From the NCBI GenBank assembly GCA_001692895.1, contig KV748208.1, forward strand, positions 744,001 to 808,000: a DNA stretch of 64,000 nucleotides. The letters are read 5' to 3'. The translations under genes were made by a program, and so were the position numbers. Origin of the DNA: Cenococcum geophilum 1.58. Lineage: Eukaryota > Ascomycota > Dothideomycetes > Gloniales > Gloniaceae. The notes under the pieces were generated by a model. It was not told the DNA's origin. It did not search any database and saw nothing but the letters and a program-made list of their open reading frames with translations. This document shows positions 3,001 through 29,645 of this stretch, piece after piece (position 1 is the stretch's first letter; each line of letters starts with the position of its first letter).

Positions 3001-4310
3001 TTTAGGATTGTTAACTCTATATAGGGTCTATACTTCTAGAGGTTACACCTACTATATATAGCAGTTGTCTGGCTAACTATAATATATAAATCTAGTATTT
3101 GGGCCATTAGAGAAACTAAAAAGGGCCCCCCTAAATTACTTCTTAAACTACTTTAAAAGGTCTAGACAGCCTACCTTTAGAGTATTATAGGCGGGNATAA
3201 GCAAACGGCCACAGTACTGCTTAAGAAGGAATCTAATATTCCCCCCCTATAGTTATATATTAAAGCCGCTGTAATATAAAGGACGTAAAATAAATATAAC
3301 TCTAATATTATAAAGTANATTAAGANACGCCTAAGTAAACTATAGAGGGACNNTAGGGTNCNCNNTAGGAGAANAAACNAANAACCCTAAAGTAGGNAAG
3401 AGATATTAGAGAAACAGGTAAAGAAAGTAGAAGAAAAATAGTGCCGCTTTAGGGCCTAGGCCTATATAGAGGAGAAAAGGAGACGCGTAAGAGGTTAGTA
3501 AAGACAATAGTAAGATAGAGAAAGGAGCTAAAGTAGAATATATAAGAACGCCGGGAAACTATCTACCGTAATGCAATACTGGTTAGACTAACGCTAGAGA
3601 GGTAAATAGGAGTTAAAGGTATAGAGGCTAACTTAGGCAAGACGAACCTAAGCTATAGTATAGTTAATACTATAGGGGGTAAATACCTAAGGGCTCTAAG
3701 AAGGCCTAATAAAGGTAGAAAATATAATAGTAACACTCTTAAGAATAGGAATAATAGGACTAAAAGATTGGCTTTACTAGGTAGGTGTCTTAGTAGGTAG
3801 CCTAAGATGCGAATATAGCTAGCTAAGACAGATACTAAAACACGTAATACTGCTATGCCCCCTACGCACTAATTAAGAAATAATGCTCTTAGTAGCTAGC
3901 ACAGAGAACTATAATATACTACTCTTAATATAAAAAGGCCTTAAGGCGGTTACCTAGTGGCTTATTAGTTAAAATATGCTAAATTAGTTACGGGTTATAA
4001 GGGAAATAGTAATAAAAGGCAAGGGGGTAAGCAGTAGGTGCCCCCTAGTAACTCTATAGTAGTAAAGTAATAGTTTATAATACTAGCGCGTCCGTAGGCT
4101 TATTACGGCAGCAGTGGTTCCTAAGGAGGTTAAATAGTAAGGTAGTAGAGCACTATAGGCGACTCGTAGGCGCTAAGTAGGCGAGTCTCAAAAGGCGGGG
4201 AGATGGATCACGGGGTTTTCTTATTTTTCTTAAATAGAGTTTTCTCCCTATATGTAAATAAGGAGTAGTCCGCGTGGGCCCAATAGGGATCTAAATCGGA
4301 CATTAAGCAA
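1..4310 (+). mobile_element. Tad1-like LINE (non-LTR retrotransposon), RIP-degraded
   Basis: A long degraded ORF2 is readable in pieces on the plus strand. An apurinic-type endonuclease domain runs from about 440 to 1100, with LLGDINLYYP near 837 matching the GD(F/I)N core. A reverse transcriptase runs from about 1750 to 2650, with LGLDGILNKALKTY near 1835, SYRPIALENTLSKILERVIA near 2010, LSLDISGAYNNIPYERL near 2228 and GLPLSPILFLFFINNLL near 2416. A C-terminal piece HVILLCPLRT near 3840 resembles the cysteine/histidine tail of Tad elements. Many Gln and Trp codons appear as stops (CA to TA changes), as RIP produces, so the copy cannot code. The left end lies outside the window and the 3' end is approximate. 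Ambiguous bases at 819 and at about 3196-3400 mark poorly resolved sequence. A GC-richer segment at 2701-2870 interrupts it. Confidence 0.8.
2701..2870. other. GC-richer insert inside the LINE
   Basis: This roughly 170-bp stretch lacks the TA-saturation of the LINE on both sides. It begins near TGTTCGGGTCACGGTG, has a run of nine or more G, then a long pyrimidine tract ending CTACAG. The LINE resumes near 2880. The ends suggest a small nested insertion, possibly a solo terminal repeat, but I could not define boundaries or a target duplication. Confidence 0.3.
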
Positions 4311-4830
4311 TGAATTATTATTAATAATATATATCCTAATTTTATTCTATAAAGCCAATCTAGTCTTTACTAAATTTCCCCGTAGTTTTAGGTATTAAAA
4401 TAGTAAGTGGTCTTTGAGCATCGAATTAGAAATGGCTGCCTCGTAGAGGATCTTATGCAATTTTTAACTAGCATCGTCTATGGCATAGGGGGCGCCCGCG
4501 CGATATAATAATATATAAACAATCATCTCTAGCGCAGTTTAGGGGTTTAGCTTAGATACATCACCGCCAAACGAAACGTAGACTAACTTTGGCTTATTTT
4601 AAGTGTAGATAATTAAATCATGAGATTAACCGAGGATTTAAAATAAGAATCAGAGCGGGGAAACAAATTTTTCTATTGTCTACCTCCCAGCCACTACTGC
4701 ATTAATTTTTGTATTATTAAAACTTGTTGCACCTAGTTGAGACGCTACCTGTAAATAGTTTAAAAAATTGGAACTGTATATAATCATTAATTTTTTCAGG
4801 CTTCTAAAATCTGTCGATTTTGACAACGAC
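4311..4830. other. AT-rich spacer without recognisable gene
   Basis: This AT-rich sequence lies between the LINE tail and the tRNA-like gene. A short minus-strand open frame runs through it into the tRNA-like gene, but it has no family features. I see nothing else here. Confidence 0.5.
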
Positions 4831-5008
4831 GGGGGATTGGCGCAATGTAAGTTAAACGTAAGTCGCCACAAAAATAATTCTAACCCTACACAGGGTAGCG
4901 CGTTGGTTTTCGGTTCTAGCTGTCCACCAAAGGTTGTGGGGTAAGAACACCCTTAACCCGCTTTAGTTTATAACTAATGAAGGTCCAGTTCGAGCCCCAT
5001 GTCCCTCG
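4831..5008 (+). tRNA. tRNA-like gene (apparent Arg, anticodon TCG) with three intervening sequences
   Basis: With three inserts removed, this folds as a complete cloverleaf. Acceptor GGGGGAT (4831-4837) pairs with GTCCCTC (5001-5007), including two G-U pairs; the discriminator is G5008. D-stem GCGC (4840-4843) pairs with GCGC, and the D-loop reads AAT+GGTA. Anticodon stem TTGGT pairs with ACCAA. T-stem GTGGG pairs with CCCAT around the T-loop TTCGAGC. Insert 1 (4847-4893, 47 bp, D-loop) starts GTAAGT, has CTAAC and ends CACAG. Insert 2 (11 nt, TTCTAGCTGTC) sits at the usual 37/38 intron position. Insert 3 (4941-4988, 48 bp, T-stem/T-loop border) starts GTAAGA, has CTAATGA and ends CAG. The two long inserts therefore look spliceosomal, which is abnormal for a nuclear Pol III gene. 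The Arg identity rests on the loop reading TTTCGG before the 11-nt insert. A decayed or retro-inserted tRNA is the main alternative. Confidence 0.7.
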
Positions 5009-5016
5009 AAATAATA

Positions 5017-5021
5017 TTTTT
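5017..5021 (+). terminator. Pol III-type T5 terminator
   Basis: A run of five T starts 9 nt after the discriminator base of the tRNA-like gene, where a Pol III terminator would lie. In AT-rich DNA such a run can also occur by chance. Confidence 0.45.
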
Positions 5022-5165
5022 GGTCAATAATAATTACACACCCCCTAAGACAACCCCTAATTGAGATATATACCTCCCTAAAATAGGCTAAGATGTTTTT
5101 ACTCTAAGTTTAAAGATTATATAAATCTAGCCTTATAGCTAGCTTTATAAATATATATTATATTA

Positions 5166-5305
5166 GGTCGCCACTAATCGCACACCCCCTAAATGATATT
5201 CGTACACCCCCCAATTGATATTCGTACACCCCCTCCTCATTAAGTTTAGCTCCTTCCTCGTCAGGTTAGCACATCACGTGCATTCGCATCTGCATCGCGA
5301 AAATC
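5166..5305 (+). repeat. left terminal inverted repeat (140 bp)
   Basis: This is the left arm of the element at 5166-5921, inverted relative to 5782-5921. Its last bases read CGCGAAAATC, after which the two arms stop matching. Confidence 0.85.
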
Positions 5306-5781
5306 TCGTGCGCGCCCATACCCAAATCAACACCTCGCATTTGCCTTGCATTTGAACGAAATTCTGGCTACACCACCCCTAGGCGTGGGCGTGGACGTAG
5401 GCGTGGGCACGGGCGTGCCCGTGGAGGCAGTTCGCAGACGTCAAGTGGAGGTAGCAGCACCCAAATTAGTTCGCGCGGCGCCTCACAAGTCACCGCTCAA
5501 TCTAATCAATCGACTCAAGAGCAGATGGGTAATGCTATAGGTGGTAAAAGTAGTGGTGGAAGTTAAGATACTGTTAATACTACTGCGGGTGCCTTATTAA
5601 GTGTCGGAGGCAATATTTAACAGGCTTTTAGAGGCCTAGGAGCTTTACCCTTTCACAAGGACTTTACTAACGGGTCCTTTGGTGCATTCCAAATTTGATT
5701 TGAACTCTACTAGTTGTACTATAGTTGAAATTAAGACTTGATTAAGGTGTTGCAGTCATAAGAGTTGCATTTTGATAATTT

Positions 5782-26463: not shown

Positions 26464-28285
26464 CTACTCCTTGTAGATATTTGAGTCAAATTTAGTCGGA
26501 AACCTATCTCTACCTTCCGCATCTTTGTTGACCCAAATGCTCACGCTGATACCAGGGCACGGGAACAGGCCATATCCTTCATCATCAATTGTGACCTTGG
26601 CCTCTTCCCACAATAATAGATCTGTCCAGACTTCGCCCTTGTGCATATCTCCAACTGCCATCCGTATTTCTCCAGGGTCAGCGTTGCTCATCACGCAGGC
26701 CAGGCCGTTCGGCTTATCCCAGGTTCCACGACGGACCCAACCAATGCAATTGGGATCGTCCCAGTAGTCTTCTTGGCTGCCATATGCATAAAGCTTCCTT
26801 GCCAGGATCATATCGGCGAGCTTATTGCCACAGGAAGGAAGCTCTGGATGCTTCCCCTTCATCCCATAGAGGTCTCCATAGAAGGGACAGGGGTACCCAT
26901 CTTGACGCAGGAGAGTGAGACAGTATGCCAGAGGCTTGAAGAAACCTGCGACTGGAGTCGCGACAGTTTGGCCAGGTCTAAGAAATAGTTAGTACGAGTT
27001 CATGGAAGTTGCAGCAGGGAACATACTGCGTATCGTGGTTCATGACGACGGTCTGAATGATTACTCGTTAGCTGCGAAATCCATGTGTAGATTCCTTACT
27101 TACCACCGCGTTCACAGGCTCTTCCTGAACGAGGGAATTGTCGAAAACTTTCCTCAAGTCTGCCTTCTCAGAAGTCGAAATTCTCGAGAAATTGTATAGC
27201 AAGGGCGCATCGTATAGCGAGAACTTGTGGTCCATTTTCGAGAGCCATTCTGCCATCACCTTGGTATCGCCGACCCAAAATTCACCCACGATGAAGATAT
27301 CTTGCCCACACTGCTCTTGGAGGTTCTCAATCCACTCGTTCGTGAATCTCTCCGAGAAGTGTTGCACAGCGTCCAATCTAAAGCCTTTCAATCCAAGCTC
27401 CTTTGTGATCCATACCCCCCAATTCTTGACATCTTCCTGGACTTCCGGATGTGAATAATCCAGATCAGCAAACATCATATAGTCTGCATTTCCTTGCTCA
27501 TTGTCCACAGAGCTGGACCAGCCTTTGTTGTCTCCAAGAATTTTATAGATAGCCTGCTTGTTGTTCTCGGCATTGAAGTCGGTGCTGCAAATTGAACGGG
27601 GTTAGAATAGTAAGAGTTTTGCTGTAAACGATAGGACTAACCCGCTGAAGTGGTACCAGTGGTATTTCTGAGAGCTGTATTTATCGTCTCGTCCTGGGAA
27701 GTCGAAGCCAAGCCATCCCTCGATCTCGTACGGCTCAGAAGTCTCTTTGGTGCGGTCTAAAATATTCCGGGTCAGTTTGTAGATCCATATTAAAAACCAC
27801 CCATAAAGGCAACGTGGAGTGAACATCTACTAGCGTACCATTTGGGTCAACCTCGACAACTTTGCACTTCTCTGTATTATCGGCAGCGGCTTTATGGTTG
27901 AGCACGGCATCCCAGTATAATCCTACGCCCGATTCTTTCGCCAACTTGGCCAGTTCCATCAATTCCTCTTTTGTGCCCCACTTTGTTGCTCTAGAGCCTT
28001 TCTGATTAAATTCTCCAAGGTCGTAGAGGTCGTAGACATCGTAGCCATTGCCGTTGGAGCTACTAGCTTTGCAGCCAGGAGGAAGCCAGATGTTGTCAAT
28101 GCCAATGGCCTTGAGCTTCGGGAGAGCCTCGAGCAGACGCTTCCAATGCTTCCCGTCGGCAGGCACATTCCATTCAAACCCTTGGAAGAGAGTCGTATTC
28201 TCTCCAGTAGGCTTGCGGCCTTCTCCATATTAGCATGCCACTCGCCACAACATGACCATCGGACATTCTTACCTTGGTCTCCCAT
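26464..28285 (-). CDS. intracellular GH13 alpha-amylase
   Basis: Six minus-strand exons, 28285-28273, 28201-27839, 27756-27642, 27584-27104, 27052-27027 and 26977-26464, give 503 aa. Introns are 71, 82, 57, 51 and 49 bp. The enzyme hydrolyses internal alpha-1,4 glucan bonds. All GH13 signatures are visible: region I DAVLNH (Asp102-His107), region II GFRLDAVQHF with nucleophile Asp235, region III IVGEFW with acid/base Glu265, and region IV NHD with Asp331. The start MGDQ then NTTLFQGFEWNVPADG lacks a signal peptide, so the protein should stay in the cell. Sequence style and length suit the GH13_5-like intracellular amylases of Pezizomycotina, which in some species affect cell-wall alpha-glucan. 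The first exon is only 13 nt; it is supported by the clean GTAAGA donor and the in-frame join to the conserved QGFEW. Confidence 0.9.
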
Positions 28286-29645
28286 CTTGGAGATATTTGT
28301 GTTATATTAGGCAAGTGAAAAGGATTGAGTAAGTAAAAAGTAGAAGAGAAGATTGCGATGAAGAAATAAAATTGGGGACACTAGGGAAGTCATATTATGT
28401 AGCTTGTGAATTCCTGTTCAAACACGTCGTCATTGAGACCTCACTGGCCTGGCCCTGATAATGCCCTTGTCTCCTCTAGGGTTGTGTGCCATATCCATGA
28501 CCCCTGGAAGACGGTAGGGTGGAAAATGATAAGCCGCATATGAGCCAAGTGCGCCGCTGACGCTTTCGTGCTTTGCAGGGCAGGTAGAAGCGAGAACATA
28601 TTTCCAAGTTTTGCAAAAACTCTCCTCAATCCTAAACACACCACCTTAAAGCCATACAAAAATACAGCCCTAAGTTAGGCTTCCTTGCAGTACAGCGCCG
28701 ATCAAATGCCGATCCATGCATGGCAGTTTTCAGCCACATTATTTGCAGAAGCGAACGAATAATCGAGCTCTGTGATGTGTGGCGTGCAAGGTTCTCGCTA
28801 AGATTTATTGCATTATCATAGATACAGATCTAGAGGTCTTGTTTAATATTCATAAGCAGAGATAGCTCTGCTATGCCTCCTTCAGCTCCATAATACACCA
28901 GACACATGTGTGACGATTATGATAGACCACAACTAGTGTGGGATTAAACAGCAGAATATGTGCCTCAAAATGGGTCGTACGGTTATCGATAAGGGCTAGC
29001 CAATCAAGTTAGCAGAATCAAGACCCGTGCTCAGAAATATAAAGCTGATGATATTACTTAATTGTCATATAAAAGTAATATGTAAACCTATTCTTCAGAG
29101 TTAGATCGCTTAATATAAGGTAGCCAGCTCGTCCTTCCTATAGAATAGTATTTAGCACACACCGCAGCCAAATAGAGTGCTTGGTAAGCCATAGTGGTTC
29201 CATGTTAATATAGAGAGGTTCAAAATAGGGCAGTGGCCAGGGCTTCGGGGGTAGTATTTTAGCTATCTTATTTAGTGGAACGTTATTTTGAGACTTCTGA
29301 ACAATATCTACATCAATCCTAGCATAATTGCCAGGCATAGGGGTGGTTAGATTTACAATTGAATTCTACACTGGTAACTCTCGCTGTTTTGACTTAGGTT
29401 TATCTCATAAATCAGACCCCCAGGGAGAAATACTGCCACGGCATGACGCCAAGGATCTAGTGCCACGCTTGTGGACGCCTCAAGTCCTGAACCAATCATA
29501 TTACACCGAGAGGCATTTCTCCCCGAGAGTCTGAGAGCTTATGGGCCAGCTTTGGTGGTAACGGAGCGTCAAAATACCCTTTTTCACTGCCGTATCTCAA
29601 CCCCTTTATAACGTCCAGTTATTACAGAAATATTATAAGGTAAGA
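28286..29645. other. intergenic region upstream of the amylase gene
   Basis: I see only short open frames and no family features. The last 500 bp become AT-rich and lead into the repeat at about 29646. Confidence 0.45.

Follow-up and report, generated by a model that had tools for sequence, protein, structure and literature searches.

A tRNA-Arg(TCG) gene of Cenococcum geophilum with two putative spliceosomal introns, and similarly interrupted tRNA genes in the same genome

The splicing of tRNA and the splicing of mRNA are taught as separate pathways, and a 2026 review, in the part of it that was available, describes tRNA splicing as independent of the spliceosome and gives no exception there (PMC13149111). 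The closest described systems, each taken from the available part of its source, include the U6 RNA of S. pombe, a Pol III RNA that contains an mRNA-type intron (PMC10484740), the nuclear rRNA genes of fungi, which also contain mRNA-type introns (PMC11782384), and the tRNA genes of Cyanidioschyzon merolae and of archaea, which are interrupted at many places and sometimes repeatedly (PMC3978253). No earlier report of tRNA genes with spliceosomal introns was found in the open-licence PMC papers searched, and by a word search "tRNA" is absent from the C. geophilum genome paper (PMC5023957).

The present work concerns a window, by which is meant the whole stretch of 64,000 nt that was analyzed, and in particular the locus at positions 4831-5008 within it. 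This locus is very probably a working nuclear tRNA-Arg(TCG) gene, whose Pol III transcript would lose two U2-type introns to the spliceosome and an 11-nt intron to the tRNA endonuclease. For the organization of the gene as a whole no precedent was found in that search, although each of its parts is of a known kind. The window gene is not unique, and there are by our reading at least eleven such tRNA genes in the genome.

The interrupted tRNA-Arg(TCG) gene

The first-pass annotation had described a tRNA gene interrupted by two spliceosomal-type inserts and one canonical tRNA intron, and this is the reading favoured here: the insert coordinates given there are exact (Table 1), and once both inserts are removed ARAGORN identifies the joined exons as tRNA-Arg(tcg), placing an 11-nt intron at 37/38. 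The complete cloverleaf that had been proposed for the joined gene is recovered in a hand layout with G-U pairs counted, in which all four stems pair (acceptor 7/7, D 4/4, anticodon 5/5, T 5/5). The donors, branch-site-like motifs, acceptors and lengths described for the two inserts are likewise all present, and the inserts do lie in the D-loop and at the T-stem/T-loop border rather than at 37/38.

Table 1. Features of the window gene, in window coordinates, and inserts of the other interrupted tRNA genes (junctions in tRNA numbering, by our own reading)
Feature	Coordinates	Strand	Location and signals	Found by
Exon 1 of tRNA-Arg(TCG)	4831..4846	+	acceptor 5' strand, positions 8-9, D-stem 5' strand, D-loop start	
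Insert 1, spliceosomal-type, 47 nt	4847..4893	+	D-loop, between positions 16 and 18; donor GTAAGT, acceptor CAG	
Insert 1, branch-site-like CTAAC	4880..4884	+	branch A 10 nt from 3' splice site	
Exon 2a	4894..4913	+	remaining D-arm, anticodon stem 5' strand, TCG at 4910-4912, G37	
Canonical tRNA intron, 11 nt	4914..4924	+	position 37/38; endonuclease cleavage expected	ARAGORN
Exon 2b	4925..4940	+	position 38, anticodon stem 3' strand, variable loop, T-stem 5' strand	
Insert 2, spliceosomal-type, 48 nt	4941..4988	+	T-stem/T-loop border, 53/54; donor GTAAGA, acceptor CAG	
Insert 2, branch-site-like CTAAT	4974..4978	+	branch A 11 nt from 3' splice site	
Exon 3	4989..5008	+	T-loop, T-stem 3' strand, acceptor 3' strand, discriminator G73	
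TTTTT run, Pol III terminator-like	5017..5021	+	starts 9 nt past the tRNA	
Arg-TCT (L015), one insert, 48 nt			D-loop, 15/16; GTAAGA...ATAG	weak RF00005 match
Trp-CCA (L057), one insert			about 22/23	pattern search
Glu-CTC (L060 and L086), one insert each			26/27	B-box search
Glu-TTC (L087), two inserts			16/18 and 26/27	B-box search
Arg-CCG (L094), one insert			25/26	B-box search
Gly-GCC (L098), one insert			20/21	B-box search
Probable Leu-CAA (L069), two inserts			anticodon stem and variable arm	B-box search
Val-CAC (L099), one insert			about 23/24	B-box + TTTT search
Arg-ACG (L109), two inserts			19/20 and 46/47	B-box + TTTT search
Asp-GTC (L124), one insert, 51 nt			variable loop	

No tRNA is recognized in the unspliced gene, or in the window as it stands, by ARAGORN or by Rfam at its gathering cut-offs. 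Removal of insert 1 alone leads ARAGORN to fit a Glu(ttc) whose intron, at 36-37, is 39 nt long, and removal of insert 2 alone yields no tRNA by the same program. A custom covariance model (R1) gives the unspliced window gene 35.4 bits and the Arg-TCT locus 68.1, scores which carry no weight because both sequences were in its training set. The locus 4831-5008 has one match in the genome.

The first-pass annotation had named beforehand, as an observation that would count against its reading, the existence of uninterrupted Arg(TCG) genes elsewhere, and at the sensitivity reached none came to light. No second Arg(TCG) was recognized among the 14 matches of a whole-genome RF00005 search that scored 63 of 10103 candidates. 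Comparing the joined sequence with the genome at the DNA level likewise brought up no uninterrupted copy of the window gene. A similar copy should have shown in the DNA search, because places of about 60 nt at 79-80% identity were found there for another tRNA; the same search missed the short exons of both the window gene and Arg-ACG, but an uninterrupted copy would present a longer match.

The second half of the window (32001-64000) is a long AT-rich tract of 29-36% GC, which lies beside a gene-bearing part of 41-61% GC. Such a contrast between AT-rich and gene-rich parts is seen in RIP-affected fungal genomes. Among named organisms, the closest relative found for one of the window proteins is Lepidopterella palustris (83%).

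Interrupted tRNA genes across the genome

The genome searched comprises 177.2 Mb in 162 contigs, and the genes in Table 1 were gathered by several routes of unequal reach. The RF00005 search was not exhaustive, as is evident from its having missed one tRNA gene (L074). The B-box sequence GGTTCGANTCC occurs at 47 places, of which 4 were known tRNAs and 43 were fetched, and 12 tRNA genes were read among the 47, seven of them interrupted (one probable). The sequence GGTTCGANCCC followed by TTTT gave 21 rows representing 12 distinct places, with 6 tRNA genes, three of them interrupted. When intron-like stretches were removed by script, 7 of 40 B-box loci yielded a tRNA, including L074, which did so without any removal, and among 11 later loci, from the GGTTCGANCCC-TTTT search and the one that gave L124, a tRNA was obtained at L099, L109 and L124. 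In total 23 nuclear tRNA genes were read, a number which is not a full inventory: 12 with inserts (that of Leu-CAA being probable) and 11 without, namely iMet, Gly-TCC, Gly-CCC, Gln-TTG, Gln-CTG, Lys-TTT, Ile-TAT, Leu-CAG, Leu-TAG, Leu-TAA and one Asp-GTC. Two mitochondrial-like or doubtful loci (L004 and L013), the partial copy L014, the loci L120 and L121, and the repeat made up of L068, L083, L088 and L122 were left out of this count. The sample of interrupted genes is biased towards a readable B box, and the frequency with which the T-arm is interrupted cannot be judged from it, because most of the genes were found through an intact B box.

Pattern searches added less. The pattern GTAAGN{30,60}AGN{0,1}GGTAGMGC matched at 105 places, compared to 17 for the reversed pattern, but the matches were mostly repeats and only the window gene and Arg-TCT were recognizable as tRNAs by their letters; the removal test applied to 41 loci from this and one further search (82 segments, 933 variants) produced a tRNA only at L035, which is the Arg-TCT locus again. 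The pattern TGGCGCA...AGCGC matched 27 times, compared to 12 reversed, and three tRNAs were recognized by their letters (the window gene, Arg-TCT and Trp). None of the 22 matches to the interrupted form of TAGCTCA...AGAGC (17 reversed) was readable as a tRNA by its letters, the single match to its uninterrupted form is no tRNA either, and GTTCGANCCC, with 356 matches compared to 645 when read backwards, was set aside as too loose a pattern. A 1032-nt query composed of 14 yeast tRNAs found no match in the genome, in a search that was uninformative by its own tool's warning. Read backwards, GGTTCGANTCC occurs 191 times. By these counts and those for GTTCGANCCC the TTCGA-containing motif looks depleted, perhaps through CpG loss or RIP.

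Several names in this list are our own and differ from those given by ARAGORN, which calls Lys-TTT (L007) Ile(tat) and returns Leu-TAA (L011) as undetermined; Leu-CAA (L069) is also our own name. The program names Arg-TCT (L015) Lys(ttt) owing to an intron in the anticodon loop, and when this intron is placed at 37/38 the anticodon becomes TCT, in line with which the loop of the partial copy L014 is exactly CTTCTAA.

The genome thus contains, besides the window gene, ten further tRNA genes with GT...AG inserts outside 37/38 and one probable gene of the kind (Leu-CAA). No GT...AG insert lies at 37/38; the junctions are spread over the D-loop and D-stem, 25/26, 26/27, the variable loop, 53/54 and perhaps, in Leu-CAA, the anticodon stem and variable arm. 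After removal of the inserts the interrupted genes give a cloverleaf with conserved loops, weakly so in Leu-CAA, and the stems drawn by hand are complete in 10 of the 12, the exceptions being Trp and Leu-CAA, which have a single mismatch each. In Glu-TTC the middle exon measures 10 nt. The reading of Leu-CAA is weak, in that the two preferred cuts lead ARAGORN to Lys(ctt) and other cuts, some of them scoring higher, lead to Thr or Leu. The insert of Trp has a weak donor (GTTTTA) and an ambiguous boundary with two possible ends. Set to accept introns as long as 50 nt, ARAGORN reads unspliced Arg-CCG as Pro(agg) and unspliced Glu-CTC (L086) as Glu(ctc), each with an intron at 32-33, and Arg-ACG with its first insert alone removed is read as Arg(acg) with a 27-nt intron.

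The strongest evidence comes from two pairs of paralogs in which inserts and exons can be compared directly. The Asp-GTC genes L012 and L124 show no difference in their exons once the ordinary 37/38 introns are set aside, and a 51-nt insert, bounded as GT...AG with a slide of up to two bases, is present only in L124; by sequence comparison they form a natural case of one tRNA with and without the insert, in which gain and loss are not distinguishable. The exons of the two Glu-CTC genes (L060 and L086) are also identical, and 28 of 48 aligned positions are the same in their inserts and 32 of 54 in their upstream flanks, a pattern that would be expected if selection acts on the joined exons.

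There are 16 inserts in all, 47-51 nt in length apart from one of 60. In the 15 that were analyzed as a set (47 nt in four, 48 in five, 49 in two, 50 in two, 51 and 60 in one each) the donor consensus is GTAAGT, with A at position 3 in 12/15, A at position 4 in 11/15, G at position 5 in 12/15 and T at position 6 in 9/15, and a pyrimidine (T or C) occupies position -3 of the acceptor in 13. Near the 3' end 14 of them have a YTRAY motif, whose A lies 10-12 nt from the end in 10 of those, and a standard branch motif is absent from the insert of L060. The sixteenth insert, that of L124, is 51 nt long and reads GTAAGC...AACTAAC...CAAG. The GT...AG ends, and in the scripted removal tests a branch-like motif as well, were used to choose the cuts and are not independent evidence; it is therefore the remainder of the donor, the spacing, the narrow range of lengths and the Asp pair that carry weight. 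A comparable donor/branch/acceptor rule is satisfied by 9 of 127,898 48-mers in the window.

The likeness in length to mRNA introns claimed for the window gene also holds, on a yardstick that is small, being one protein-coding gene of the window: an amylase-like gene (26500-28300, minus strand) with at least four short introns, of which four measure 49, 51, 53 and 57 nt, keep the reading frame across each, and have CTAAC or CTAAT 10-17 nt from the 3' end. Stops occur in the joined translation of this gene, presumably owing to an additional intron that was not taken out. Judged by these sequence features, the inserts carry the signs of U2-type introns that were tested, namely donor and acceptor, branch spacing, host-like length and absence from an identical paralog, the last in one pair that does not include the window gene.

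The precision of the boundaries was also evaluated blindly, by deleting every stretch of 30-70 nt anywhere in a gene and scoring the remainder with ARAGORN. In the window gene none of the 3896 and 3937 variants scored above the GT...AG cut, which was equalled by 21 other cuts for insert 1 and by one for insert 2. No better arbitrary deletion exists for Arg-TCT or Gly-GCC either, while for 12 of the 16 inserts some arbitrary deletion outscores the GT...AG cut (1 to 244 better among about 3500-5400 tried).

A shared sequence family among the inserts is not supported, the pairwise scores having a mean z of 0.63 and a highest value of 3.8 in 105 pairs with 30 shuffles each; scores so close to those of shuffled sequences give no support to a young introner family. 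With their different positions and no clear sequence family, the inserts look mostly independently gained.

Some other tRNA-like sequences were seen in the course of the searches. L008 (C25:339282-339387, minus strand) is read by ARAGORN as Ile(tat) and has 106 nt, some 33 more than a plain tRNA, the excess lying in the anticodon region, where no GT...AG insert was seen. L120 (C39:1343539) and L121 (C16:444020) have a Gly-like D-arm, an anticodon that appears to be GCA (Cys), accompanied by a short insert, and, in both copies, a T-loop reduced to about 5 nt (CCGGGTTATTCCCGG); neither is recognized as a tRNA by ARAGORN. The near-identical sequences L068, L083, L088 and L122 (GGCGCAGTGGTAGAGATRTGCTATCGGGAAGTC...GGTTCGAATCC...TTTT) occur at unrelated sites and are perhaps a tRNA-derived SINE, L122 being read by ARAGORN as Pro(cgg). 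A dispersed repeat, whose copies have similar upstream sequence and the B-box-like GGTTCGATTCC close to the end, accounts for L062, L066, L076, L081, L089, L090, L093, L095 and L123.

Proposed processing and its alternatives

The window gene would be transcribed by Pol III, as the T-run downstream and the largely preserved internal boxes suggest. Insert 1 cuts the A box, although the first base of the intron keeps TGGCGCAATG of it, and the final AG of insert 2 together with TTCGAGCCC of the next exon forms the B-box-like AGTTCGAGCCC, which agrees with 10 of the 11 bases of what we take to be the B-box consensus (the A-box consensus is assumed in the same way). In the other eleven genes no insert interrupts the B box, which in the window gene departs from the consensus by one base, and a run of four or more T lies within about 20 nt downstream of all 12 interrupted genes, having been a condition of the search for Val-CAC and Arg-ACG. 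The donor, branch site, acceptor, length and boundaries of the two U2-type introns point to their removal by the spliceosome, and the position of the 11-nt intron at 37/38 points to the tRNA endonuclease. Spliceosomal removal would probably come first, before endonuclease cleavage and the maturation of the ends, because the D-arm and T-arm cannot form normally with the GT-AG introns in place.

The same arrangement appears to hold in at least eleven tRNA genes of the genome, and the decoding of several codons is for that reason probably dependent on the spliceosome. More broadly, it seems likely from the sequences read that about half of the readable nuclear tRNA genes (12 of 23, counting one probable case) require the spliceosome and many of these the endonuclease too, that the decoding of several codons is thereby coupled to pre-mRNA splicing, and that introns have repeatedly been gained in Pol III tRNA genes.

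The first-pass annotation had named three possible implications of such a gene: Pol II or readthrough transcription, the action of the spliceosome on a Pol III transcript, or a new class of inserted intron. The first is not needed, and the second, by analogy with U6 of S. pombe, is a simpler reading. Production of the genes within mRNA-like Pol II transcripts would give the spliceosome access to them and is compatible with spliceosomal removal; spliceosomal introns are normally features of Pol II transcripts, and the A box is indeed split by the inserts at 15/16 and 16/18, while the B box is adjoined by the insert at 53/54. It is nevertheless unlikely, given that T-runs lie near the 3' end of 12/12 genes (two of them selected for it), that the B boxes are kept, in a count biased by the B-box search through which most genes were found, and that a Pol III RNA can be spliced, as the available part of the U6 source indicates (PMC10484740).

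A different enzyme rather than a different polymerase would be involved if the inserts were ectopic BHB-type introns, excised by the tRNA splicing endonuclease in its usual or a relaxed form, with GT...AG ends that are incidental. The available part of one source describes ectopic and multiple introns in nuclear tRNAs of Cyanidioschyzon merolae and ectopic introns in the Guillardia nucleomorph, many without a defined BHB (PMC3978253), and ordinary 37/38 introns often occur in the very genes considered here. At the exact junctions, however, the 16 inserts offer 0-3 of the 4 pairs that make up a BHB central helix and never all 4, and within 3 nt to either side 4 pairs are reached for only 3 of the 16; nothing resembling a common fold is obvious in single-sequence folds of 15 inserts; and GTAAGT-like donors, branch-like motifs and a narrow range of lengths are unexpected of endonuclease introns. 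The eukaryotic tRNA endonuclease is positioned on the mature domain near 37/38. Because the junctions lack a full BHB helix, the inserts share no obvious fold and the enzyme is so positioned, the endonuclease is an improbable agent for the GT...AG inserts, and BHB introns were rejected as the main reading on the absence of the full 4-bp helix at all 16 exact junctions; removal by the spliceosome is preferred.

It is equally improbable that the interrupted copies are decayed genes, pseudogenes or relics whose work is done by intact genes that are not in the list. The genome is large and has AT-rich tracts, the family search scored 63 of 10103 candidates and missed L074, an uninterrupted Asp-GTC copy exists (L012), and L014 (G000:C67:902817-902870, minus strand) is an Arg-TCT-like copy that is uninterrupted but broken, with 54 nt at 96%, neither the D-loop insert nor the anticodon intron, and an unmatched 5' part. 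A DNA search of the genome with ten joined tRNAs, on the other hand, found no uninterrupted full-length copy of any of them: its 20 places comprise exons belonging to 8 of the 10 loci and to the paralog L086, together with L014 and with L120 and L121, which are weaker and Gly-like. Decay also fits poorly with paralogs that keep identical exons while their inserts or flanks diverge, and with stems that are complete in 10 of 12 genes. L014 is possibly a retrocopy of a spliced tRNA, and if so it would itself be evidence of splicing.

That the cloverleaf is a chance product of the free choice of two removals has a negligible probability even though the cuts were first picked by eye, since 909 other 280-nt segments of the window, on both strands, gave no tRNA in 5139 variants with 0, 1 or 2 removals of 38-75 nt and a branch-like motif, 147 intron-like removals across the window (123 single, 24 double) gave one tRNA, which was the double removal in the window gene, and the arrangement recurs elsewhere in the genome and is present and absent in the Asp-GTC pair; with the controls empty apart from the window gene, chance cuts were rejected.

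Comparison with known systems

If the proposed processing is correct, genes of this kind would need both of the pathways that are taught as separate, and the spliceosome would act on very short structured transcripts with exons of as little as 10 nt. The genes would also be clean material for the study of intron gain, offering a 72-nt target of known structure and a pair that differs in the presence of an intron, and they could explain why an ordinary tRNA search of this genome returns few tRNAs. A further question would be what advantage the fungus draws from linking its decoding capacity to the spliceosome.

Canonical nuclear tRNA introns are represented in the window gene itself, which has one at 37/38 (4914-4924), whereas the GT...AG inserts lie elsewhere and bear spliceosomal signals. 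The genes resemble the tRNAs of C. merolae and archaea in being interrupted at many places, sometimes repeatedly, but those introns, in the available part of the source, belong to the endonuclease/BHB type (PMC3978253), while here no full BHB helix exists at the exact junctions and GT-AG and branch signals are clear. Introner-like elements, as described in the available part of PMC4457414, are a case of intron gain in the same class of fungi, the Dothideomycetes, from which the present inserts differ in having no clear sequence family. The nuclear rRNA genes of fungi share with these genes the presence of mRNA-type introns in a structural RNA gene that is not transcribed by Pol II (PMC11782384, available part), but their introns lie in Pol I rRNA and not in tRNA. 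The likeness to U6 of S. pombe is that of a small non-coding Pol III RNA with an mRNA-type intron, which in U6 is removed by splicing; on the available part of the source, however, U6 is a single snRNA, itself part of the spliceosome, for whose intron an origin by reverse splicing has been proposed (PMC10484740), whereas the inserts described here are distributed over many tRNA genes, with up to two introns in each and about a dozen different positions.
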